From assembly GCA_028279625.1 (NCBI GenBank), contig JANQNM010000086.1:1-47353 (forward strand): a DNA stretch of 47,353 bases, in the 5' to 3' direction. Numbering within the stretch: the first letter of the stretch is position 1; the number at the start of each line of letters is the position of its first letter. Positions 6,635 to 27,604 of the stretch are shown here, one piece after another. The stretch comes from Candidatus Nitrosopumilus sp. (GTDB taxonomy: Archaea; Thermoproteota; Nitrososphaeria; Nitrososphaerales; Nitrosopumilaceae). Under the pieces are notes generated by a model, which made no database searches, was not told the DNA's origin, and saw only the letters and a list, made by a program, of their open reading frames with translations. The position numbers were made by a program, and so were the translations under genes.

Positions 6635-6687
6635 GAAAATTCTCCATACGTAGCATTTAATTTCCCAGATTTTTGAGATAATTTTGT

Positions 6688-6802
6688 GCCGGGGTAGCTC
6701 AGCCTGGTTAGAGTGCCAGTTCACTTGGTAATCTCTAAAGGTTCTCCAACTAAGGCAATACTCATAATCTGGAGGTCGCGAGTTCGAAACTCGCCCCCGG
6801 CA
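6688..6802 (+). tRNA. elongator tRNA-Met (anticodon CAU), intron-containing
   Basis: Acceptor GCCGGGG/CCCCGGC, T-arm GCGAGTTCGAAACTCGC; removing 6720-6759 gives anticodon stem CCAGA/TCTGG with loop CTCATAA. Confidence 0.93.
6720..6759 (+). other. tRNA-Met intron at non-canonical position 30/31 (BHB-type)
   Basis: Bulge-helix-bulge: 5' GAG-UGCC-AG|U ... GGCA-AU|A-CUC; central UGCC/GGCA 4-bp helix, two 3-nt bulges, outer GAG/CUC helix. Confidence 0.85.
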
Positions 6803-6810
6803 TTACAGAA
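6785..6810 (+). repeat. attL-like tRNA 3' end repeat
   Basis: cgaaactcgcccccggcattacagaa; 14-bp exact core cccccggcattaca shared with 37221-37234. Confidence 0.65.
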
Positions 6811-6844
6811 TCACTTTAAAGCCCACCCCTGCGTTAACTATGGC

Positions 6845-8179
6845 GTGAGTTTAAAGACAATAAAAAAACGCCAAATACACGATTACGATTCTTTAATGAG
6901 ATCCGTAAACAGACAGATTCGAATTGAATTGTCAGAGAACAATTCTGAACTAATTACAAAGTATGACAGAGAAATGGTTCGCCAATCTATTGCAGTTGCA
7001 ACAAGACAAAAACATTTGCGAACATTGCTTGGATTAACTAGACTTTTGAAAAAAGATTGGAAGGATGCAACAAAAGACGACATGGATGAACTAGTTTACG
7101 AAATAATGCAAAGACATTCAGATGAATCAGGAAAAGAAACAAACTATTCGTATGATCACAAAAAAGTTTTGAAAATTTTCATGAGATGGTTAAAGCTTGG
7201 TTCTAGAGAATTTTCTGAAGTAGGGGATCCTCCTGAAACTTCACAAATCAGAATGAAACGAGTCAAAGACAAGATAATTCGCGAAGATTTGTTAACTGAA
7301 GATGACATCTCAAGACTTTTGCATGCATGTGGCGAGAATGCAAGAGACAGAGCATTAATTGATTGTCACTATGAAGGAGGGACAAGACCTGGAGAAATTC
7401 TTTCTATTTTGATAAAACATGTAAAGTTTGATCAATATGGTGCAAACTTGCATGTTGATGGAAAAACTGGACCTAGAACCGTTCGATTGGTAAAGTCAAC
7501 ACCTAGTCTTGCAAACTGGATGGCAACTCATCCATTCAAGGACAACCCTGATGCTCCAGTGTGGATTAATCTAACAAAGAGACATTATGGCGAACAATTG
7601 ACATATCCTGCAGCTCGTGCAATGTTTGAAAGAAGAGCAAAAATTGCACATTTGGAGAAAAGAGTCAACCTAAACATGTTCAGACATAGCGAGGCCACAA
7701 ACTCTGCAAAATTCATGACAGAGGCACAGTTGAGAAAAAGACACGGATGGTCACCTGAATCCAAGATGCCGGCACGATATGTCCACATGGTAAACGCTGA
7801 TGTTGATGATGCAATCTTCAAACAACTTGGAATCAAAAAAGAAGAGGAAGTTATCAAGATGCCACAAAAATGCCACATTTGTGACATGCCAAATGCTCCA
7901 GATGCCAAAATGTGTTCAAAATGTGGAAAACCACTGGATCTTGGTACAAGTTTAGAGATTGATGAGAAAAACCAAGAACAAATCACAAAACAGAACGAAA
8001 AGATAGAAAGTTTGGAAAAAACTCTCAAATCAATGCAAAACAGTTTAGAGAAGCGAGATAAGGAATGGGAGACAGCAATTGTGAAAATACTTGAAGAACA
8101 AGCAAAAAAGTTCTCAGATCCTAACTATATCAAGAAATTAGAAGAAAAAGAAAATTCTGATGAAATTTTGTATAATTAA
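6845..8179 (+). CDS. Tyrosine recombinase/integrase with C-terminal zinc ribbon and coiled coil
   Basis: GTRPGEIL (Arg box), NMFRHSEAT, RHGWSPESKMPARYVHM (His...Tyr); zinc ribbon CHICDMPNAPDAKMCSKC. The track ORF 6713 starts inside the tRNA; GTG 6845 or ATG 6896 is more plausible. Confidence 0.87.
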   Translation: MSLKTIKKRQIHDYDSLMRSVNRQIRIELSENNSELITKYDREMVRQSIAVATRQKHLRTLLGLTRLLKKDWKDATKDDMDELVYEIMQRHSDESGKETNYSYDHKKVLKIFMRWLKLGSREFSEVGDPPETSQIRMKRVKDKIIREDLLTEDDISRLLHACGENARDRALIDCHYEGGTRPGEILSILIKHVKFDQYGANLHVDGKTGPRTVRLVKSTPSLANWMATHPFKDNPDAPVWINLTKRHYGEQLTYPAARAMFERRAKIAHLEKRVNLNMFRHSEATNSAKFMTEAQLRKRHGWSPESKMPARYVHMVNADVDDAIFKQLGIKKEEEVIKMPQKCHICDMPNAPDAKMCSKCGKPLDLGTSLEIDEKNQEQITKQNEKIESLEKTLKSMQNSLEKRDKEWETAIVKILEEQAKKFSDPNYIKKLEEKENSDEILYN

Positions 8180-9141: not shown

Positions 9142-9786
9142 TTATTTTGTTACATGCCCCTTAATTCTACCAACAACTCTATCAACTTCTTTGTCTGAAA
9201 ATATCTCATATCTGCTTTGAATGAATGGGTTAATGTTATCCATGTTTTTGACATTGACAAATTTGTACTCAGAATCATACTGAAGATTTCCACGGTTTGC
9301 TAACACAACTTTGGTCACTTGGGGGTTTCTTGGACTAAACCAAGACTTTAATGCAATCCACAGAACCATTCCAGCTCTATCTACTTGTTCATGTGGAGTA
9401 ATTCCTTTTTTCTTGTTCTTTTCAACATATGAATTTCCCCAGTTTTTTGTTTCAATTAATACAATTCCTCTTTTTGATACAACAACAAAATCCATTTGAG
9501 CTGATTTGAGATTTTTCCTTCCACGATATGTTATGTAACGACCTAAATCCATTCGAACACCACATAAAACATGAAAATTATCATCCAACTCTGATAGTTT
9601 ATCGATAACTTCTAACTCGCCTTTTGCACCACGAATCCATTTTCCTTTTTTTCTTTCTTCAATTTTGTTTATCTGTCGTTTTTTCTTCCAACGTCGAAAT
9701 TTGTTTCCTATACCTTTTTCATCAATAGAGTCAAATTCTTGCTTCATCTCTTTGTGAATTTTTCTAATATCATCTACTGTTTCCAC
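9142..9786 (-). CDS. NERD (nuclease-related) domain protein
   Basis: GAKGELEVIDKL ... SAQMDFVVVSKRGIVLIETKNW is a typical NERD core. Confidence 0.78.
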   Translation of the reverse strand: METVDDIRKIHKEMKQEFDSIDEKGIGNKFRRWKKKRQINKIEERKKGKWIRGAKGELEVIDKLSELDDNFHVLCGVRMDLGRYITYRGRKNLKSAQMDFVVVSKRGIVLIETKNWGNSYVEKNKKKGITPHEQVDRAGMVLWIALKSWFSPRNPQVTKVVLANRGNLQYDSEYKFVNVKNMDNINPFIQSRYEIFSDKEVDRVVGRIKGHVTK

Positions 9787-9983: not shown

Positions 9984-10922
9984 ATGCAAGAAAATAAAGG
10001 AATATCAGATATTGCATCATCTGAAGGAGATTTATCTGATTTCACAAAAATTTGCAGAGCAATATGCAATAATCGATTAATTTCAAAAGAGAAACTATTC
10101 AAAATTATTATGAATGAAATTAAAAGTAAATCAGAAGGTTCTATTGAGAGGAAACTCAGTATTATGCAGAAATTAAATTTAATAGATATTGTAAACCAAA
10201 AATATGCATTAAATTCAAATGGAAAAATTTTGATTGAGATAAGTAATGAGCCATTTGTATTTTCAGAAAAAATTGAAAAAGCATTTTATTTTATCATTTT
10301 GTTTATGTCTGATGCTAGAATTCAGCTTGCCACATTACTTCAATCAATAAATGAACAAAATGGAGATGACAAAAAGAATAACATTCTAAGATATTTTAAA
10401 ACAGATATTGCGCAGATGATTTGGAATAAACAAATCGTACAAAAAAATATTCATGATTTAGAAAAATCAAACAAAATTCCAAGCATGTTTAACAATAAAT
10501 TTTCTTGTATGAACAAATGGTTACAAATCATAGATTTGGTGGAATCAAAACAGAATGGATTACATGTGAATTTACCGAAAAAAATGATTAATTCTCTAAC
10601 AGATTCAAAGAATGTAGAGAAAATTTTTGAAGAAACCGCAACAAAATATTATCCTGAAGCAGTTAAATTCAATTTAAAAAAACATTATCAAAAACTAAGT
10701 GAATTATTTATTGAAGGTCATGAGAAATTTTGTACATCAACAGTGGGAATTAGTGATGCTGATGCAGTTGGAAAGTATGTATGTTTACAACTTTTGAAAT
10801 CAGGAATTATTCTTGAAGAAAATCACTTTTTCAAGTTAACAGGGGAACTAAAACAAGACAATATTATTCGTTCAGTAATGATCGGTAGAGATGGAAAACC
10901 CAAAAATTTTAGCGTAAATTAG
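9984..10922 (+). CDS. hypothetical protein, possible winged-helix N-terminus
   Basis: 312-aa ORF; overlaps the end of the convergent ATPase gene by 4 bp. Confidence 0.6.
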   Translation: MQENKGISDIASSEGDLSDFTKICRAICNNRLISKEKLFKIIMNEIKSKSEGSIERKLSIMQKLNLIDIVNQKYALNSNGKILIEISNEPFVFSEKIEKAFYFIILFMSDARIQLATLLQSINEQNGDDKKNNILRYFKTDIAQMIWNKQIVQKNIHDLEKSNKIPSMFNNKFSCMNKWLQIIDLVESKQNGLHVNLPKKMINSLTDSKNVEKIFEETATKYYPEAVKFNLKKHYQKLSELFIEGHEKFCTSTVGISDADAVGKYVCLQLLKSGIILEENHFFKLTGELKQDNIIRSVMIGRDGKPKNFSVN

Positions 10923-12019
10923 AGATAGCGTAGGGAGGATTTGTTGTCTTCAACAAATTTTGAATCTATAACATCTAGTTCTTGCTCTGCTGCTTCTCGA
11001 ACTAGTCTACCACAATTGGGTAGTAAAAATCCAGGATAATGATATTCAGGTCTCATTAATCTAAGTAATACTTCTAAGGAATCATCAGAAAATGGGGATA
11101 ATTTATTTTCAGGCGCGTTTGATGGATTAAAATACAAATTATGATGAACACGTAAGAATTCAGAAATATGTTCTGATGATAAACTATCTAGTCTGATTAA
11201 ATAATCAAATCGTCTAGAAAGTTGTTCAGAAAATCCCAATTCATACCATTCATCTTCTTTTTCTGCAGTAAAGGATGCAATTAATGCAAAGTTTTCTGAA
11301 AAATCATCCAATAATTCTCTTAAACTGTCACCAATAGCACTACTAAGTTTTGCAGGAGTATTTTCTAATTCATCAATAACTAATACAACAGGGCCAAAAT
11401 TTTTGCTGAGATGTAAAAGAAGTTCTTTTAATATTGTCAATCGTTTGTAGTCCCCATCAAGAGCATAGGTAATATCTAACGTGTTAAGTTCTGATGATGA
11501 AAGTCGTTCTCCAAGCAACCATTTCTTTGCTAGTTCAGGGTGATGCGCATTGGTATTAATCATATGTAGTATTCTTGCTAGTTCATTATTTGGAATTAAT
11601 TGGTTCCAAGTAGTTGGGGTTTCATTTGAAAATTCTTTTTGAACAAAAGCGCCAATATTTTTTAGATTATTTTTTATAAAATTAGACATTGCTTCTCTAT
11701 ACATAACTGAAAAAGAAGCTTCAACTGCCGGAATTAATGTATAAATGAAAACAATGTTTTTGTTTGCATCTTTAGATTTTTGATTTAGTTTTTTATTGAT
11801 AATTTTTGTTAACCACGTTTTACCACTACCTGTTTGTCCAAATATTCGTAGACCTATCCTACCACCATTTAAAATATCTTCAAAAAATCTATCAAGATCT
11901 CTTTGCACATTTTTTAAATCAGGTCTATCCCATTCAAGAAATTTTTCATCAATCAAATAGGGATTTGTAGGTTCATATGGATTTTGTACAAAATTATATT
12001 TCTCGAAATATTTGGCCAT
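10919..12019 (-). CDS. AAA/STAND-like P-loop ATPase
   Basis: Walker A FGQTGSGKTWLTK, Walker B VVLVIDELEN. Confidence 0.82.
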   Translation of the reverse strand: MAKYFEKYNFVQNPYEPTNPYLIDEKFLEWDRPDLKNVQRDLDRFFEDILNGGRIGLRIFGQTGSGKTWLTKIINKKLNQKSKDANKNIVFIYTLIPAVEASFSVMYREAMSNFIKNNLKNIGAFVQKEFSNETPTTWNQLIPNNELARILHMINTNAHHPELAKKWLLGERLSSSELNTLDITYALDGDYKRLTILKELLLHLSKNFGPVVLVIDELENTPAKLSSAIGDSLRELLDDFSENFALIASFTAEKEDEWYELGFSEQLSRRFDYLIRLDSLSSEHISEFLRVHHNLYFNPSNAPENKLSPFSDDSLEVLLRLMRPEYHYPGFLLPNCGRLVREAAEQELDVIDSKFVEDNKSSLRYL

Positions 12020-12054: not shown

Positions 12055-12516
12055 TTAAGTACCACCTAAAATCGTATTAATGTATGTATGAGCATCATCG
12101 ATCAAAGTTTCTTGTTCGTTTTCAACATAAACACCTGCTTCCTTGTTTTGATGTATTGCAGTATCAGTGATGTTTAAGCTTGACACCAATAGGCTCTTCG
12201 AGTTTCCTTCTAATAACACCATTTTTGCATGAACACCTTTTCTTGACAAAATAGAAATCCCTAAATTATCTTCTAGATCTTCTACAAATTCTTGTTCAGT
12301 TTTATCTCTTGCAAGAAATTTCCGGCTTATGATTATCGTAATTTTTATCTGACTACGTACTAGCTGTTCTAATTTATCACGAAACGACACACCATTAATT
12401 GATGCGTTATGAATATGTTGACTAACAATTTTGACCTTTTTCATTCCTCTTCGTGCTGTCAATAGTTGATTTAGCCGAGATTCCAATGAATCACCAAAAA
12501 CAAATTCAATTACCAA
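12055..12516 (-). CDS. Phospholipase D-family protein (single HKD; DpdK-like candidate)
   Basis: VHAKMVLLEGNSKSLLVSSLNITDTAIHQNKEAGVYV, an HxK(x)n PLD motif. Confidence 0.78.
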   Translation of the reverse strand: MVIEFVFGDSLESRLNQLLTARRGMKKVKIVSQHIHNASINGVSFRDKLEQLVRSQIKITIIISRKFLARDKTEQEFVEDLEDNLGISILSRKGVHAKMVLLEGNSKSLLVSSLNITDTAIHQNKEAGVYVENEQETLIDDAHTYINTILGGT

Positions 12517-12532
12517 ATCATCACCTCAAAAA

Positions 12533-13579
12533 CTATGAATGTGTTATTTTATTACTCTTTTTAGTTTTTTCAATTGTGGAAAATAATGAAGCAAAATTTG
12601 TTTTTTTCATTATTTTTGAAACATAATCGTCATACCTATTTTCTTTCATTAGTTTTCTAGCTTTTTTAACTTCTTGTTGATGAACCCATGCGTTGTGAAC
12701 TGCTCTTGCTGTGAAATCTTTTTTTAATCTTGAAAGACCATAGTTTCTACACATTGGACATCTACATTTTTCTAGTTTTTCTTTTTCTTCTTTAGAGAGT
12801 TGAGGATAGGGTTTTTTTCTAACAGAGTTTGTTATCCATCTGTCTCCAATGCCTGGCATTTGAATTGCTCCAAAAGCAGCTTTTGTTCGCCATGCAGAAC
12901 TATCAAGAGAATTAGCACCAGCATAATACATCAAATGCATTGTAAGTGTTCCTCCTGTTCCAAAAACATGTAGTTTAGCGCGTGGTATTTGTTTTCTAAT
13001 TTCCATAATTACTTTCATCACATTTAGAATTCCCCCTACTCCTTTGACGTTATATAATGCAGGAACTAAGCTACCAATTCCATAAATAGAAAATTTTCCC
13101 ATTTTTTTTAATCTATTAACATACCATTTTATTTCGGGATCAGTATATCCATGAACAACTGGGATAAGAATAGGATTTTTTGTGGTTCTCTTTTTGATCA
13201 TTATTTTTGTATTTTGTAAAGTTTTGAGTTTCCGTTTCTGATTTTCAGAATCTGTATTAGTTGGAAATAACGGATGATCTAAAACTACACCATAATTTGG
13301 ATTAGTTTCTTCATAAAATGATATGATCTCTTCGGCAGAAACATCCATGATATTTTTTTTCATAAACATAAACCCACCAGAATCCATCATGACTGGACCT
13401 TGGAATCCTAAATAATCATGAATTTTTTGTTCCTTTACTTTACGAAATGCGGATGGGTGTTGCATAAAATCATACGCATTCATTAAAACTCCATCAACTT
13501 TGAAGAATTTCCAAGGTGCACTGGCATCTTGACCAACTTCTTGGCTAAACCAAAGCATAGGATATTGAATTTTAGACAT
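12533..13579 (-). CDS. dpdA: TGT-superfamily transglycosylase, DpdA-like (7-deazaguanine insertion)
   Basis: MMDSGGFMF (DSGGF), candidate nucleophile region SLDSSAWRTKAAFG, zinc site CRCPMC..H; 348 aa with no room for archaeal TGT PUA domains. Confidence 0.75.
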   Translation of the reverse strand: MSKIQYPMLWFSQEVGQDASAPWKFFKVDGVLMNAYDFMQHPSAFRKVKEQKIHDYLGFQGPVMMDSGGFMFMKKNIMDVSAEEIISFYEETNPNYGVVLDHPLFPTNTDSENQKRKLKTLQNTKIMIKKRTTKNPILIPVVHGYTDPEIKWYVNRLKKMGKFSIYGIGSLVPALYNVKGVGGILNVMKVIMEIRKQIPRAKLHVFGTGGTLTMHLMYYAGANSLDSSAWRTKAAFGAIQMPGIGDRWITNSVRKKPYPQLSKEEKEKLEKCRCPMCRNYGLSRLKKDFTARAVHNAWVHQQEVKKARKLMKENRYDDYVSKIMKKTNFASLFSTIEKTKKSNKITHS

Positions 13580-14310
13580 TAGATATTTTCTAATCTAGTT
13601 ATGAGATTTTTTAACATATAGCTATGAGCTACGCCATACATATCCCATGCAAATGAACCGCGTTTGTTTACAAGCGATCTAACCTGCTTTTTTTCTGGCA
13701 AGATTTCTAAATCTAAAGCAAATTTTTCAGAAGCCATTTCAAGCATCCTTCTATGAGTATGATCAATTTTTTGTTCAAGATTTGAAGAATAGGTTCTAAC
13801 AAAACCAATCATATGTCGATATACCTTTTTTTGTTTCATTTTCTTCAAAAATTTTCCAATATTGTCAGAAAGAAGATCTAAACTTTTGTCTAGATACTCT
13901 TCATCAAATTCTTGACCGTATTTTTTACACCACCATTCAAACAAGCCAGGACAGTCATACCATTGAAATTTTTCATAATATTCTTCTGGCACTAATCCAA
14001 AAGGTTCAGAAATTGTCATAACTTGAATTTTTTTCCTATTTCCATTTAACATGTCTAAGTAATTGTACAGTTGTTTGTATGATCTTGATTCATTGTATGG
14101 TTTTACAGTTGAACATGGAAAAATCAAAAGTGTATCTTTTTTTTCTGGTTTGTATTTTGTCATCATAAATTTCTGCCAATTTTCAATATCAGAATTATTT
14201 TTTAGACCAGTGTAGACTTGTTTTGGGTTGTAAAAACAAAGAGATTTCTTGATTTTTACGCCTTTTCCGATTTTAGACGAAACTTGATCAAATAGTTGTT
14301 GTTTTGACAC
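13579..14310 (-). CDS. Archaeosine synthase (ArcS)-like DUF5591-type protein
   Basis: LLIFPCSTVKPYNESRSYKQLY resembling ArcS PCS..KPYS.S.SH; MTISEPFGLVPEEYYEKFQWYDCPGLFEWW resembling the ArcS core; abuts the transglycosylase gene. Confidence 0.7.
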   Translation of the reverse strand: MSKQQLFDQVSSKIGKGVKIKKSLCFYNPKQVYTGLKNNSDIENWQKFMMTKYKPEKKDTLLIFPCSTVKPYNESRSYKQLYNYLDMLNGNRKKIQVMTISEPFGLVPEEYYEKFQWYDCPGLFEWWCKKYGQEFDEEYLDKSLDLLSDNIGKFLKKMKQKKVYRHMIGFVRTYSSNLEQKIDHTHRRMLEMASEKFALDLEILPEKKQVRSLVNKRGSFAWDMYGVAHSYMLKNLITRLENI

Positions 14311-14353: not shown

Positions 14354-14995
14354 TTAGTAATCAAATGTTGTAGAACCAAATGCTTCTTGTCTAACTGTAC
14401 ATGCAGGGCATTTTTCACAAGGAAATTCTGATGATTCATAACAACTTCTTGTATATGATAAATCAAATCCAAGTTTTTTACAATAATCAATTAATCCAGG
14501 TTTTGTATTACATGGAAAGTCTCCTTCAAAAAAAGGAGAAAAAATTCTAACTTTGTAAGGTATAGCAATTTCTGTTTCTTGTTCCTTTATCTTAAAAAAT
14601 TTAGGTTGGCCATCACCCATATCATAATCAAAAGTTGCAAGAACAATAGTAGAGATATTTTTTCCTGCAGCAAATCGGATTGCATTATTTATCATATCAG
14701 AATTTCGCAAATAGGTTCGTGATTCAAAATTATGTTTTTTAAATTCTGGAGCTGGGATATCTGTTGTTACTATGAAGGGTTCATGGAATCTAGATTTGTA
14801 ATCCTTAAAGAAAATTTTTGTGTAATGTTCAACAGATTTTGATTCAAATTCAGTATTTCTTTGTCCGTGTTTAAGAAATAAAGGGAAAACTTCACCCTCA
14901 TAATTATTTAAAATAATTTTGATTAATCCTGTACTATCTAATCCACCGGACCATAAAACAACAATTTTCTCATTTAGTAATGAAAGATCCGACAT
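14354..14995 (-). CDS. queC: QueC-like 7-cyano-7-deazaguanine (preQ0) synthase
   Basis: VVLWSGGLDSTG PP-loop; C-terminal SCYESSEFPCEKCPACTVRQEAF zinc site typical of QueC. Confidence 0.85.
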   Translation of the reverse strand: MSDLSLLNEKIVVLWSGGLDSTGLIKIILNNYEGEVFPLFLKHGQRNTEFESKSVEHYTKIFFKDYKSRFHEPFIVTTDIPAPEFKKHNFESRTYLRNSDMINNAIRFAAGKNISTIVLATFDYDMGDGQPKFFKIKEQETEIAIPYKVRIFSPFFEGDFPCNTKPGLIDYCKKLGFDLSYTRSCYESSEFPCEKCPACTVRQEAFGSTTFDY

Positions 14996-15351: not shown

Positions 15352-16524
15352 ATGGATTTTCAGATAAATCCCATTCGCGAGATGCCCATAGAAGATGCTA
15401 AATTACTTGGGCATGAAAAAATAGTAGCAAATCTCAAAACATTCCTAGAAAATGAAAACATGATCACTCCATTATCCATCGCCATTCATGGAGAATGGGG
15501 AAGTGGTAAAACAAGCATAATGAAAACATTGGAGAAAAATCTTGACAATTCAAAATTTGAAGTTTTATTTTTTGAAGCATGGAAATATGAATATTCAAAT
15601 CCATCATTAGGATTAATCACAGAGATTGCGGAAAAATATGCCACGGGCAATCTTACAAAAGACATAATTCGTGCTGGAGCATACATTCTTGCACAGAAGT
15701 ATTTAGGAGTCAATCCTGAAGAAGTCTTAAAAAATATTCGAGCTTCAAAGGCACATTCTGAAACCCTATCTGAAAAACTAAGAAAAGTGGTAGAAGATAA
15801 AATTGGTAATAAAAAATTAATCATAATAATTGATGATTTGGATAGATGTGACGTAGAAAATAGTTTACAATTACTTGCAATAACGAAATTATTTTTTGAT
15901 TTGGAAAATTGTGTATGTATTGCAGCAGTTGATTTTAAACGATTAAGACAAGCATGGAGACAAAAATATCAAATTGATAAAACATCCGATGATGATGGCA
16001 GTCAATATTTAGATAAAATCTTCCAAATTCAAATAGGAATTCCTAAACCACCAGTTGAACAAGTTAAGGAGTATGTGGAAACATTGATTGAACAAATTCC
16101 CAATAGTGTCTCAGAATTATTGGCCAACATATTACCCAAAAATCCGCGTTCAATAAAACGAATATTAAATTTAATTTCCTATCGACAGAATATTTTACAA
16201 AGTGACAACAAAGAAATCTCTGCAATTTTCTGGACATTGTTAGAAGAAATTATTTCCAACTCCAAAATAATTTATCTTCATGACTTATTGAAGAAAAATG
16301 GTGCATCTATAGGACATTTCATTTTACAAGGAAATGATTGGGCTACTGTTAAAAAATATGTACAGAATCATTTAGGAAATGATTTTTACACAAAACATGC
16401 AACCCGATTATCTATGTTTTTTGCCTTGAGTTACAATATTTGTGTCGAAAACAATATTACCAAAAATGAGATTGATGATGATTTTGTTATTCTTTATTCT
16501 GCAACTAATGAAGCTCTACGTTAA
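15352..16524 (+). CDS. KAP-family P-loop NTPase
   Basis: IHGEWGSGKTSIMKTLE Walker A, LIIIIDDLDRCD Walker B; KAP-type arrangement. Confidence 0.85.
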   Translation: MDFQINPIREMPIEDAKLLGHEKIVANLKTFLENENMITPLSIAIHGEWGSGKTSIMKTLEKNLDNSKFEVLFFEAWKYEYSNPSLGLITEIAEKYATGNLTKDIIRAGAYILAQKYLGVNPEEVLKNIRASKAHSETLSEKLRKVVEDKIGNKKLIIIIDDLDRCDVENSLQLLAITKLFFDLENCVCIAAVDFKRLRQAWRQKYQIDKTSDDDGSQYLDKIFQIQIGIPKPPVEQVKEYVETLIEQIPNSVSELLANILPKNPRSIKRILNLISYRQNILQSDNKEISAIFWTLLEEIISNSKIIYLHDLLKKNGASIGHFILQGNDWATVKKYVQNHLGNDFYTKHATRLSMFFALSYNICVENNITKNEIDDDFVILYSATNEALR

Positions 16525-17002: not shown

Positions 17003-18382
17003 TCATTTCTTGAGTTTTGTCTGCATTACTGATTTTGGAACCATTTTCTTTACGGTTGAAATAATTTGCTCATATTCTTTATTTTCAATACCTAACATGG
17101 AATCATCAATACCAAAGACAATTTGATTTTTCTTTAATTCCATTAATCCTATGCCAAAAATTATTATGGATATTCTCAAAATATCACAAACTTTGTCCAA
17201 TGTTTCACGTACTTTTTGATGCTCTTGTTGTGCTATATTGTTACCATGACCTATAGTGTTTCTATAGCCATATGCATCTTCAATGATTTTTCTTATTTGT
17301 CTTCCATCTAAACCAAAATTACTTAGTAGTTTTGCAATTCTGTTGGAAATTCTATATTTGATTTCTCCTAATTCATGTTTTGCAGAAAATAATGCTTCTA
17401 ATCCTATTACTGCTGTCATCAGGTTTCTTCCATCTTCTACCATATCTAATGTAGAATTTTTATAACGCTCTAAGGCAATATTGAATCCAAACATGTCTTT
17501 TTCTTTGTTAGATTTTTGTTCAAGAATGGGGAAAAACACTTCTGCAAATTCATGAAAATTTGGAATTTCTTTGTCTGTCATTTCATATTTGTATTGAATA
17601 CGATCTTTTTGTATTGGTGACGAAGTTCCAGAACTCATAGGCCAGATTAGGCTTGAGGATTTACTTCTTAATTGTTGATGGGTTACAGAAGAAAGCCTAA
17701 ATAATCTAAAAACATCTAAAATGTTTACCATTTTAGAATGTCCCAGATTTTGATCTCCCTTAATTTTAAAAGTCAAAATTCCATCTGGAAAATTAAACAT
17801 TGGATGACGATTGTCTATATCAATATCTTGAGGCTGTAGTTTTCTAAATGAAAAATGCTGTAAAATTGTATCAGTACATGAAACAAACACGCCTAAAATT
17901 TTTGCAGTAAATTCAATAGTGACTGGAATTTCATTTAATTCCATCATTAAATTTGAGACATAATGTGTGGTTGATTTTGGTTTCCCATTAGAATATAATT
18001 TTTCAAATTCATCTTCTGCAACTCTTTTGAAAAATGTTTCTAACCACATTTCCATTTGACCAATTGGATTTTCAAATTTGTTTGTGATTGAAGTTGCTTT
18101 TACGAGACTATTTGCTAGACTTCCTAGTGTTCCATCTGTGATTAATTTTTCATCTATAATTTTTGCAATAATCTGACTCCAATCTGGTTTTGTTTCAATT
18201 TCTGTTTTAGATGTTGCACTATGGCTGTTTAATCCTGTTTTTAGTTCTGTTACAACATTTTTGTATGATTTAACAATAGGAATAAGATCCTCTTTTTCTT
18301 TAATCTGCTCAAACGACTTACTACATTCCATTTTTAACAAATTCACTGCACGAGTTAAATCATCAATTTCCATAAATGACAT
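17003..18382 (-). CDS. HEPN-like domain protein (Apea_HEPN type)
   Basis: C-terminal helices with EDAYGYRNTIGHGNN (R-x4-H) preceded by GLEALFSAKHELGEIKYRISNRIAKLL. Confidence 0.6.
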   Translation of the reverse strand: MSFMEIDDLTRAVNLLKMECSKSFEQIKEKEDLIPIVKSYKNVVTELKTGLNSHSATSKTEIETKPDWSQIIAKIIDEKLITDGTLGSLANSLVKATSITNKFENPIGQMEMWLETFFKRVAEDEFEKLYSNGKPKSTTHYVSNLMMELNEIPVTIEFTAKILGVFVSCTDTILQHFSFRKLQPQDIDIDNRHPMFNFPDGILTFKIKGDQNLGHSKMVNILDVFRLFRLSSVTHQQLRSKSSSLIWPMSSGTSSPIQKDRIQYKYEMTDKEIPNFHEFAEVFFPILEQKSNKEKDMFGFNIALERYKNSTLDMVEDGRNLMTAVIGLEALFSAKHELGEIKYRISNRIAKLLSNFGLDGRQIRKIIEDAYGYRNTIGHGNNIAQQEHQKVRETLDKVCDILRISIIIFGIGLMELKKNQIVFGIDDSMLGIENKEYEQIISTVKKMVPKSVMQTKLKK

Positions 18383-25207: not shown

Positions 25208-27604
25208 TTATGGAGAATATGGCATGTATTTCATTGAAGTTCCAAAAGTTTCTTCCCAGATAGTTGCTTGTTCATCAGTAATTGGATAATGATCATTGTG
25301 CGTATATTGAGATTCTTTTGCAAATGAGCCACATCCGCCTGGTATCCATGGAACTGGAGTTGCAAAAGGATCTAGTTGGAATGCTATATTATGATAATCT
25401 GAATGCCAAGGACCAGGTTTTAGATAACTTTCAGAACACCCATCATCTGGTGGAGATAACATAAATTGATAGGCTGGAAATACCAAATTTCCTATCTTAA
25501 TAGCACTAATTTCCCACTTGTAGTTTCCATCTGAATTAGATTCTGTAGTTGATTGTGGACTATGAGTTGCCTTGAACTTTGCAATCAAGTCATCTAGTGC
25601 AAGAAGAGCATCGTTCATGGTATCAAATTCATGTCGTTCATTGCCAACAATCAGAGTCACTATTCCAGAATTGTAATTCACATATGGTCCATTAACATAA
25701 ACATCGCCTGATTCTGTAAATCCGTCATCTTCAGGTTCAGTTGAAGTTTCAGGTTCTGTTTCATCATAAGTTGTTGAATAATTTTCTGATTCATGTTCAT
25801 CTCCACAAACAACACACAAACCATGTTCTCCAACCTCTAAACAAGTTTGGCAGGAATCAGCACTTGTTCCAATTTCAACTTCAGATTCAACAAATTCTTC
25901 TCCACAATTTACGCATAATCCATGAGGAGCTATTTCTCCTGAACATGAAGGACATTCAAGAATACTAGGACTACTAGGATCAGTACTAATCATTTTGTGG
26001 CCTTCAATGACATCAGGGTTTAAAATTTGGTCAAGCGTTCCTTTGGGATATTTTTGTAAAATAGTCATGATGTTTCCATTTGGCAATGTAATTCCCATAA
26101 AAAAGCCAGAAGAGCCATAAACCCAGGAAGAATCATCGTCATTTGAGGGAACTAGTGGGTCAACCAAGTTATCAGATGGATTTGCGTCTTCATTTACAAT
26201 TACAAAGAAACCCCCATCAAAGGATGTAGAAGACTCTGTAAAATCAGAATTTACTGGAGGAAGTTCAGGCTCACCACGTTCAAAATATTCTATAAAAATT
26301 TCTGCACCATCTTCATTTGATAGTGTATCAATAAAAAACAAAATCATTTGTCCTTCGGGGGTAGCCATTGAATGGATGGTATTTTTAGTTGGAACTGTAT
26401 TTGATGATGACTTTTTTTTAGAAAATGAATCAATTTTAAAATCAGAGTATTCTATTCCGTTAATTTTCTCAGACACAAAATTTTGGTCAGTTCTAGATAA
26501 TTTTTGAAATTCTGGAGATTCAGAAATGATAGATAGTAAAACATCTTGAAGGTCTTCATTTGCCTGTTTTTGAGCTTTTTGAGCGTCTTTATGTGCAGAT
26601 TTTAGTTCAGATTTAGTTTCAAATGTTTTATCCATTGAATCAATTTCTGATTGTTGCCTCTCTACTGATTTTTCCAAGTCTAAAACATTGAAACCAGATT
26701 TTATTGCAATTTTCTTTGCATTTTCTGAAAATATTGTTGTTGATTTTAGAATTTCAGTGGAACGGTGAGAATCTTCTTTTGCTTTTTTCTCAAGATTTCC
26801 AAGTTCAATCATTTCATTCATTGAATTTTGATCTTTGTTTTCTGAATAAGCATCTAGAGATTGTTCATAGGATTTTTTTATGCTTTCGTATTCCCCACTT
26901 TTAATTTTTTGAAGATATGTCATGGCAAGTTCATTAGATTTTGCTGATGGCATTAATTCAAGAGGAGCCCATGCATGTTCAATTCCAAACCATGTTGGAA
27001 TGCATTTTCCTTCAGTAGTACCATCTCGTTTTGCGCACACTTCTCCTTTGTCAGCATCACAGACATTATCATCTGCACATTCTGTTGCACCCCAGCGACT
27101 ATCAATACCAAATTCTTTTGAAGTTTTATCTACCAAACCAGATGCTCCAAATGCGTTTTCAAATTTTTCTTGTCTTTCAGAGACTTCTTTTTGGATTTTT
27201 TCTGAATTGATGATTCCTTTAGTCATTAAATGACCAATAGCATTAACAATTTCATCATCTGAAATGATTCCTTCACCCCAGAATCCAAACACATCTTTTT
27301 GATAACTAGGAATGGATGGTTCTCCTTTTGGTACATTTGAGACATCTTCAAGGTCTGAGGATTGCACAAACCTATCAAGAGGAATGATATCTTGAACCAT
27401 TAAAGATTCAAGAGCATTAATCATATCAGCATCAGTGATTAGACCATCTTTCCACCACTTTGCGTTAGTTTTGAACCAGTCAGGCATCACATTTTGCGAA
27501 ATTCCTGGATCATGTTCATTGTAATCTGTCCATTGAGCATGAGACATGGTAAAAGTCTGTGAAATTAAGATAATTACAAAAAAAACTACAAAAAGCGTTT
27601 TCAC
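25208..27604 (-). CDS. large secreted protein with N-terminal WF/WW repeat modules and CxxC pairs
   Basis: Signal peptide; MPDWFKTNAKWWKDGLITDADMINALESLMVQDII repeat typical of thaumarchaeal secreted proteins; CPSCSGEIAPHGLCVNCGEEF / CQTCLEVGEHGLCVVCGDEH; GTG start. Confidence 0.75.
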   Translation of the reverse strand: MKTLFVVFFVIILISQTFTMSHAQWTDYNEHDPGISQNVMPDWFKTNAKWWKDGLITDADMINALESLMVQDIIPLDRFVQSSDLEDVSNVPKGEPSIPSYQKDVFGFWGEGIISDDEIVNAIGHLMTKGIINSEKIQKEVSERQEKFENAFGASGLVDKTSKEFGIDSRWGATECADDNVCDADKGEVCAKRDGTTEGKCIPTWFGIEHAWAPLELMPSAKSNELAMTYLQKIKSGEYESIKKSYEQSLDAYSENKDQNSMNEMIELGNLEKKAKEDSHRSTEILKSTTIFSENAKKIAIKSGFNVLDLEKSVERQQSEIDSMDKTFETKSELKSAHKDAQKAQKQANEDLQDVLLSIISESPEFQKLSRTDQNFVSEKINGIEYSDFKIDSFSKKKSSSNTVPTKNTIHSMATPEGQMILFFIDTLSNEDGAEIFIEYFERGEPELPPVNSDFTESSTSFDGGFFVIVNEDANPSDNLVDPLVPSNDDDSSWVYGSSGFFMGITLPNGNIMTILQKYPKGTLDQILNPDVIEGHKMISTDPSSPSILECPSCSGEIAPHGLCVNCGEEFVESEVEIGTSADSCQTCLEVGEHGLCVVCGDEHESENYSTTYDETEPETSTEPEDDGFTESGDVYVNGPYVNYNSGIVTLIVGNERHEFDTMNDALLALDDLIAKFKATHSPQSTTESNSDGNYKWEISAIKIGNLVFPAYQFMLSPPDDGCSESYLKPGPWHSDYHNIAFQLDPFATPVPWIPGGCGSFAKESQYTHNDHYPITDEQATIWEETFGTSMKYMPYSP

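Follow-up and report, generated by a model that had tools for sequence, protein, structure and literature searches.

The window analyzed here is the whole stretch of 47,353 nucleotides from the archaeon Candidatus Nitrosopumilus sp. (contig JANQNM010000086.1). It carries a variable, mobile-looking island in which genes for a QueC-like enzyme, an ArcS-core protein, a DpdA-like transglycosylase, a PLD nuclease, and an AAA ATPase form a tight run on the minus strand, with successive gaps of 43, −1, 16, and 35 bp; the ArcS-core and DpdA-like genes thus overlap by 1 bp. The features are as follows.

6688–6802, plus strand: tRNA with a CAT anticodon and an intron, bordering the island on its left (Rfam tRNA, 48.2 bits; conserved in relatives)
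6713–8179, plus strand: tyrosine recombinase, ORF as listed (Pfam Phage_integrase, 1e-13)
6803–39473, strand not applicable: variable island of approximately 33 kb, from the tRNA to the resumption of synteny (blastn against G022)
9984–10922, plus strand: 312-aa protein, convergent to the run and possibly part of the system (no convincing family match)
10919–12019, minus strand: AAA ATPase of 366 aa with Walker A at residue 61 and Walker B at 213 (homology to BrxC/D-type ATPase)
12055–12516, minus strand: PLD-type nuclease of 153 aa with a single HKD motif (HxK at residue 96), DrmC/DpdK-like (Pfam PLDc_2, 5e-9)
12533–13579, minus strand: DpdA-like transglycosylase of 348 aa, comprising the catalytic domain without PUA (Pfam TGT, PADLOC DpdA, alignment, and fold)
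13579–14310, minus strand: stand-alone ArcS-core (DUF5591) protein, 243 aa (Pfam/NCBIfam, AlphaFold2 model, and homologs)
14354–14995, minus strand: QueC-like enzyme, 213 aa (Pfam QueC, 5e-19; phrog_1550, 2.2e-28; alignment with the host QueC)

When the window was compared by blastn with a genome of the same genus (G022), matches were found at 6654–6802 and from 39474 onward, and the intervening DNA had no match. Because the flanks of the island are syntenic with the genus, a binning artefact is unlikely. The CAT-anticodon tRNA is the probable attachment site of the island; no second copy of its 3′ end was detected at the right edge within three mismatches, and the true start of the recombinase probably lies downstream of the tRNA, not at position 6713. 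The ArcS-core protein had no match in same-genus genomes (150 relatives searched). Elsewhere on the island, a KAP-family NTPase resembling QatA and PDC-S20 (15352–16524) lies upstream of the run and is divergent from it, a 459-aa protein (17003–18382) weakly matches HEPN (RiboL-PSP) and may be a further defence gene, and a protein with a NERD nuclease-related domain is encoded at 9142–9786. A 798-aa protein (25208–27604) matches the transglutaminase-elicitor domain (5e-18), which is unexpected for an archaeal island.

The gene at 13579–14310 had been described, in a sequence-only reading, as encoding a 243-aa ArcS-like protein coupled to the adjacent DpdA-like gene. Its coordinates and length stood, although the strand proved to be minus: the ORF starts with GTG at 14310, and the plus-strand frame is riddled with stops. 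The motifs named in that reading are all present (PCS at residues 65–67, KPY at 70–72, SRSY at 75–78, GLVPEE, and YDCP at 118–121), and the proposed identity was borne out by both profile and fold. Pfam DUF5591 matched with an E value of 2.8e-14 (53.7 bits, above the gathering cut-off of 26). The NCBIfam ArcS model gave 53.3 bits, below its full-length cut-off of 440, and the match spanned profile positions 277–356 of 575; this confinement to the core of the profile means that the protein corresponds to just the core of ArcS, the TGT-like and PUA parts being absent. The AlphaFold2 model, built from a 16-sequence alignment of the window and locus proteins, had a mean pLDDT of 90, and the suggested comparison with ArcS structures returned 2Q07 (AF0587, an ArcS-core relative) as the top PDB match (Foldseek, E = 3e-5; VIA-align, 137 residues aligned with Z = 13.8 and rmsd 2.5), with the next rows at Z of approximately 6. 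SMUG1-like folds, weak matches at Z of approximately 6, were discarded as evidence. AF0587 was also the sole solved sequence to match the protein credibly, across the PC..KPY..S block. Residues W45, P65, C66, K70, P71, Y72, S101, E102, P103, P108, E110, Y112, Y118, L147, and H186 were invariant in the alignment. The ArcS motif reads PCx3KPYx2Sx2H, and every residue of it is kept in the window protein except the last, where His is replaced by Tyr. The Tyr is shared with the relatives in Ca. Nitrosothermus koennekii, G431, and G449, and the proteins of the STSV viruses and of family f35 have His.

The neighboring DpdA-like protein (Pfam TGT, 9.8e-24; PADLOC DpdA, 3.2e-17) has neither a PUA domain nor any other C-terminal domain. 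It retains D66, D101, H143, H204, D226, and the zinc site CxCxxC..H, and the TGT catalytic residues D66, D101, and D226 are invariant. Two features link it to the characterized DpdA of phage 9g and are absent from TgtA, that of the host included: a KAAFGAI-type block following the catalytic Asp (DSSAWRTKAAFGAIQMPG versus DSSSWIQSAAFGAIETPK) and a His, H143, where QGG stands. H204 aligns with His 196 of the phage 9g protein, but archaeal TgtA also has His here, so that this residue separates the window protein from DpdA2 only. Among the NCBIfam models, TgtA (TIGR00432) scored 101 bits and DpdA 64 bits against an equivalog cut-off of 200, and we therefore call the protein DpdA-like rather than a bacterial DpdA equivalog. 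The nearest solved fold to its structure model, which is of moderate quality (pLDDT 74.5), was arcTGT (1IQ8, Z = 26.9), and a comparison of this predicted fold cannot tell DpdA from TgtA. In the phylogenetic tree its placement was unsure, beside the TgtA side of the branch dividing the pair members from TgtA (96/89). The gene product probably swaps modified guanines into DNA. Its closest relative found (E = 8e-43) is encoded on the cyanobacterial Aulosira laxa plasmid6 (L145, 1674–10011), where it is preceded by SbcC/SbcD-like genes and a gene weakly resembling HerA.

The coupling of the ArcS-core and DpdA-like genes proved to recur across unrelated loci: the pair was found in the window, in N. 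koennekii, in G449, in seven loci of family f35, which from its similarity to STSV appears to be the Sulfolobaceae, and in the viruses STSV1 and STSV4. The gene order differs between lineages, so that the linkage has been kept while the order changed. In N. koennekii (G132), a full-length ArcS-core relative with 50% identity is convergent to, and overlaps, a DpdA-like gene, which argues that the pairing in the window is not due to chance. The two genes also overlap in STSV1 and STSV4, and STSV2 matches both. When a 300-genome sample of the phylum was scanned, nine further ArcS-core matches exceeded 120 bits, eight of them with a DpdA-like gene nearby (G449 and the seven f35 loci). No DpdA was found in the stretches read beside the window-type ArcS-core of G431 (L077, 6265–7023) or near the lower-scoring matches of family f56 (G517, G473, G585, and G488). 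The scan of genome contigs with the ArcS-core yielded N. koennekii as the sole match. Viral contigs gave no match to the single window ArcS-core or QueC sequence and no relative with a two-sequence alignment; broader alignments matched STSV1/2 only. In G443/G552 and G449, which belong to two families, the pair and the genes for HerA, a large protein, and NurA form a single run on one strand, and the NurA genes are extra copies. Runs of this composition (L097, 215–8234; L098, 903–10852) are a candidate modification-restriction system. At three other loci (L019, 8390–9864; L020, 7017–8890; L094, 6070–7499), a stand-alone ArcS-core lies beside a short RaSEA homolog, apparently forming a split archaeosine synthase.

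Downstream of the pair, the PLD nuclease matched PADLOC DrmC (5e-11) and, weakly and under the cut-off, NCBIfam DpdK (3e-4). The AAA ATPase is similar to a Haloferax protein (8e-15) that itself matches BrxC_BrxD (1e-15). In haloarchaeal plasmids, the BrxC/D-type ATPase lies two genes after DpdA, and this order of DpdA, an intervening gene, and ATPase parallels the DpdA–PLD–AAA order of the window. One of these plasmids, Haloferax pBNX82-4 (L147, 3784–10328), groups genes for a 964-aa TGT/DUF6884 protein, a DpdA-like protein, a 298-aa protein, a BrxC/D ATPase, and a QueD-like protein, and its DpdA-like, 298-aa, and ATPase genes were found again in a Halobaculum plasmid (L146). For the 312-aa protein convergent to the window run, profile scans gave no credible family match, and comparison with the 255-, 298-, and 235-aa proteins of other runs did not support a similarity. 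In the PADLOC and NCBIfam searches of the run, no DpdB, DpdC, helicase, or other Dpd gene was recognized; the only Dpd matches were those to DpdA and the sub-cut-off match to DpdK.

The host genome has a full TgtA gene, separate from the island, and, on contig 69, a canonical QueC with SGGxDS, YGQ...E, VPIRN, the zinc cysteines, and YPDC intact. The canonical QueC signature comprises SGGxDS, the zinc motif, YxQxHxxE, and YPDC, and alanine mutants of Escherichia coli QueC at Y35 and Y131 are inactive (PMC13329287). In an alignment with the host QueC, the island protein retains SGGLDS and the zinc cysteines, but Tyr35 of YxQxHxxE is replaced by His and YPDC by MGDG, and these two departures fall at E. 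coli positions Y35 and Y131. The island QueC may thus be not a plain preQ0 synthase but an enzyme of a related, different reaction. The search for a RaSEA partner proposed in the sequence-only reading detected none in the 90.5%-complete genome, where only an Elp3 protein scored (34 bits against a cut-off of 212), and a QueF-like protein was likewise not found; as the genome is approximately 90% complete, both absences are provisional. With no detectable RaSEA, a lysine adduct is possible as the end product.

On this evidence, we consider it moderately probable that the locus represents an archaeal form of Dpd-type DNA 7-deazaguanine modification-restriction, in which DpdA inserts preQ0, the ArcS-core replaces DpdC at the nitrile, and the PLD nuclease and ATPase attack unmarked DNA. 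The canonical host QueC would supply preQ0, with the divergent island QueC possibly aiding or redirecting this supply, and the DpdA-like enzyme would then swap guanine in DNA for preQ0. The ArcS-core would attack the nitrile of preQ0 once this is in DNA, a role that falls to DpdC in bacteria, and by homology would add an amine. The amine would most likely be lysine, as with the ArcS of Thermococcus kodakarensis, which transfers lysine even to the preQ0 nucleoside (PMC11298593). Without RaSEA, the preQ0–lysine adduct could stay as the final base; ammonia or water in place of lysine would give dG+ or dADG. Any DNA lacking the mark would be the target of the PLD nuclease and the BrxC/D-like ATPase. 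A more specific proposal, that the DNA of this archaeon bears the preQ0–lysine adduct or another amidine 7-deazaguanine as a stable self-mark, made by DpdA and a free-standing ArcS core without RaSEA, within a widespread archaeal modification-restriction family common to viruses like STSV1, is one we hold only tentatively and regard as doubtful. The original STSV1 paper reportedly termed the DNA of this virus unusually modified. STSV1 was nevertheless dropped as proof of 7-deazaguanine, because a cytosine modification was detected and a methylase indicated in the accessible part of a report on it (PMC11208441).

The pair might instead act on tRNA, a second transglycosylase and the ArcS-core together installing archaeosine, or a lysine adduct, at a different position in tRNA. 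The arcTGT fold and the higher TIGR00432 score of the DpdA-like protein accord with this, as do the ArcS-cores that adjoin RaSEA homologs elsewhere and presumably serve tRNA, and no QueF-like protein or RaSEA was detected in the host for its own tRNA archaeosine. In family f35, the DpdA-like gene occurs in 18 of 31 genomes and its presence or absence is fixed by genus, which is compatible with a housekeeping role. However, 30 of these 31 genomes, with or without the pair, have a QueC of Gat-QueC size (463–511 aa), indicating that their tRNA archaeosine has a route independent of the pair, and the Nitrosopumilus host already has a full TgtA. Moreover, PUA is missing from the DpdA-like enzymes, which have the DpdA-type block, and the pair sits in viruses, in a tRNA-linked island, and in runs with HerA/NurA or PLD/ATPase genes. 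We think an action on tRNA unlikely. It is also quite improbable, in our judgement, that the genes form a modification-only or counter-defence cassette marking the DNA of a mobile element, with the PLD and ATPase genes as unrelated neighbors. The window island does have a recombinase, and no adjoining PLD or BrxC/D-like ATPase was recognized in STSV1/2/4 or in the virus-like N. koennekii stretch; yet in the window the two genes follow on the same strand at spacings of 16 and 35 bp, haloarchaeal plasmids carry DpdA near a homologous ATPase, and HerA/NurA runs occur at other loci. Defence of the QatABCD/Cap9 type, in which a QueC-like protein attaches 7-deazaguanine to a protein and DpdA and the ArcS-core are secondary, is very improbable: although the KAP NTPase resembles QatA (2.9e-26) and the island QueC deviates from the canonical signature, the latter has 213 aa versus approximately 400 aa for QatC (PMC13329287) and scores 15.7 bits with the QatC model (cut-off 280), and the KAP gene lies on the opposite strand, apart from the run, with no QatB, QatD, or CD-NTase recognized among the proteins scanned around it.

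The modification-restriction reading invites comparison with several known systems. ArcS, which works with RaSEA to complete the archaeal tRNA base archaeosine, shares with the window protein the core domain, the PCx3KPYx2S motif, and the AF0587 fold (PMC11298593), but the window protein lacks the TGT-like and PUA domains, has Tyr as the last motif residue, and is accompanied by a DpdA-like partner, with no RaSEA found. A thaumarchaeal TGT without PUA had been raised earlier as a possible DNA modifier (PMC6790972). Our search found no literature naming DUF5591 or an archaeal DpdA/ArcS-core cassette, in coverage lying mostly outside subscription journals, and the supplementary tables of a 2019 survey, which was accessible in part, may already include STSV1/2. 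The STSV1, STSV2, and STSV4 viruses have DpdA-like and DUF5591 genes as the window does, but their ArcS-cores form a subfamily of 187–190 aa that keeps the motif His, and no QueC, PLD, or BrxC/D-like ATPase was recognized beside them. In bacteria, Vibrio phage nt-1 pairs DpdA2 with an ArcS homolog, so that the DpdA/ArcS pairing itself is not new and the sequence-only reading was overstated on this point, and the DNA of nt-1 contains mainly dPreQ0, some dADG, and traces of dG+; in the accessible part of that report, the role of ArcS homologs beside DNA transglycosylases is left open and the tables list no lysine adduct, although such an adduct could have been missed (PMC6884629). Its stand-alone DUF5591 gene is VPFG_00169 (226 aa). 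VPFG_00173 was ruled out as the nt-1 ArcS, as its product starts with MCGLFAA and is class-II amidotransferase-like. The window resembles nt-1 in combining a transglycosylase, a stand-alone DUF5591 protein, and QueC, but DpdA2 is, according to the same part of the report, a different subfamily without the His 196 of DpdA, whereas the window protein has H204 (PMC6884629); nt-1 is moreover a phage with its own preQ0 genes, and no adjoining PLD/ATPase run was seen in it. BREX-related HerA/FtsK capture systems, archaeal ones included, likewise associate a TGT with a BrxC-like ATPase and HerA, and according to their authors' proposal dPreQ0 by itself may serve as the mark; the accessible part of that description does not mention an ArcS-core or QueC (PMC12839542), and PglZ, DUF4007, and GNAT were not recognized in the window run. 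Bacterial Dpd clusters, which contain DpdA, an ATPase, a helicase, and a PLD nuclease, restrict unmodified DNA, and the window shares with them DpdA, a preQ0 synthesis gene, an ATPase, a PLD-family nuclease, and a location in a genomic island (PMC5567051). It differs from them in having an ArcS-core for DpdC and an archaeal host, and in that DpdB, helicases, and other Dpd genes were unrecognized. The presence of the pair in Sulfolobaceae-like chromosomes and in isolated STSV viruses makes the ArcS question raised by phage nt-1, and a possible undescribed archaeal DNA base, testable by mass spectrometry. Should the pair prove to act on DNA, archaea would possess a Dpd-like defence of their own, in which both the base and the enzyme that completes it differ from those of the bacterial dADG/DpdC route.
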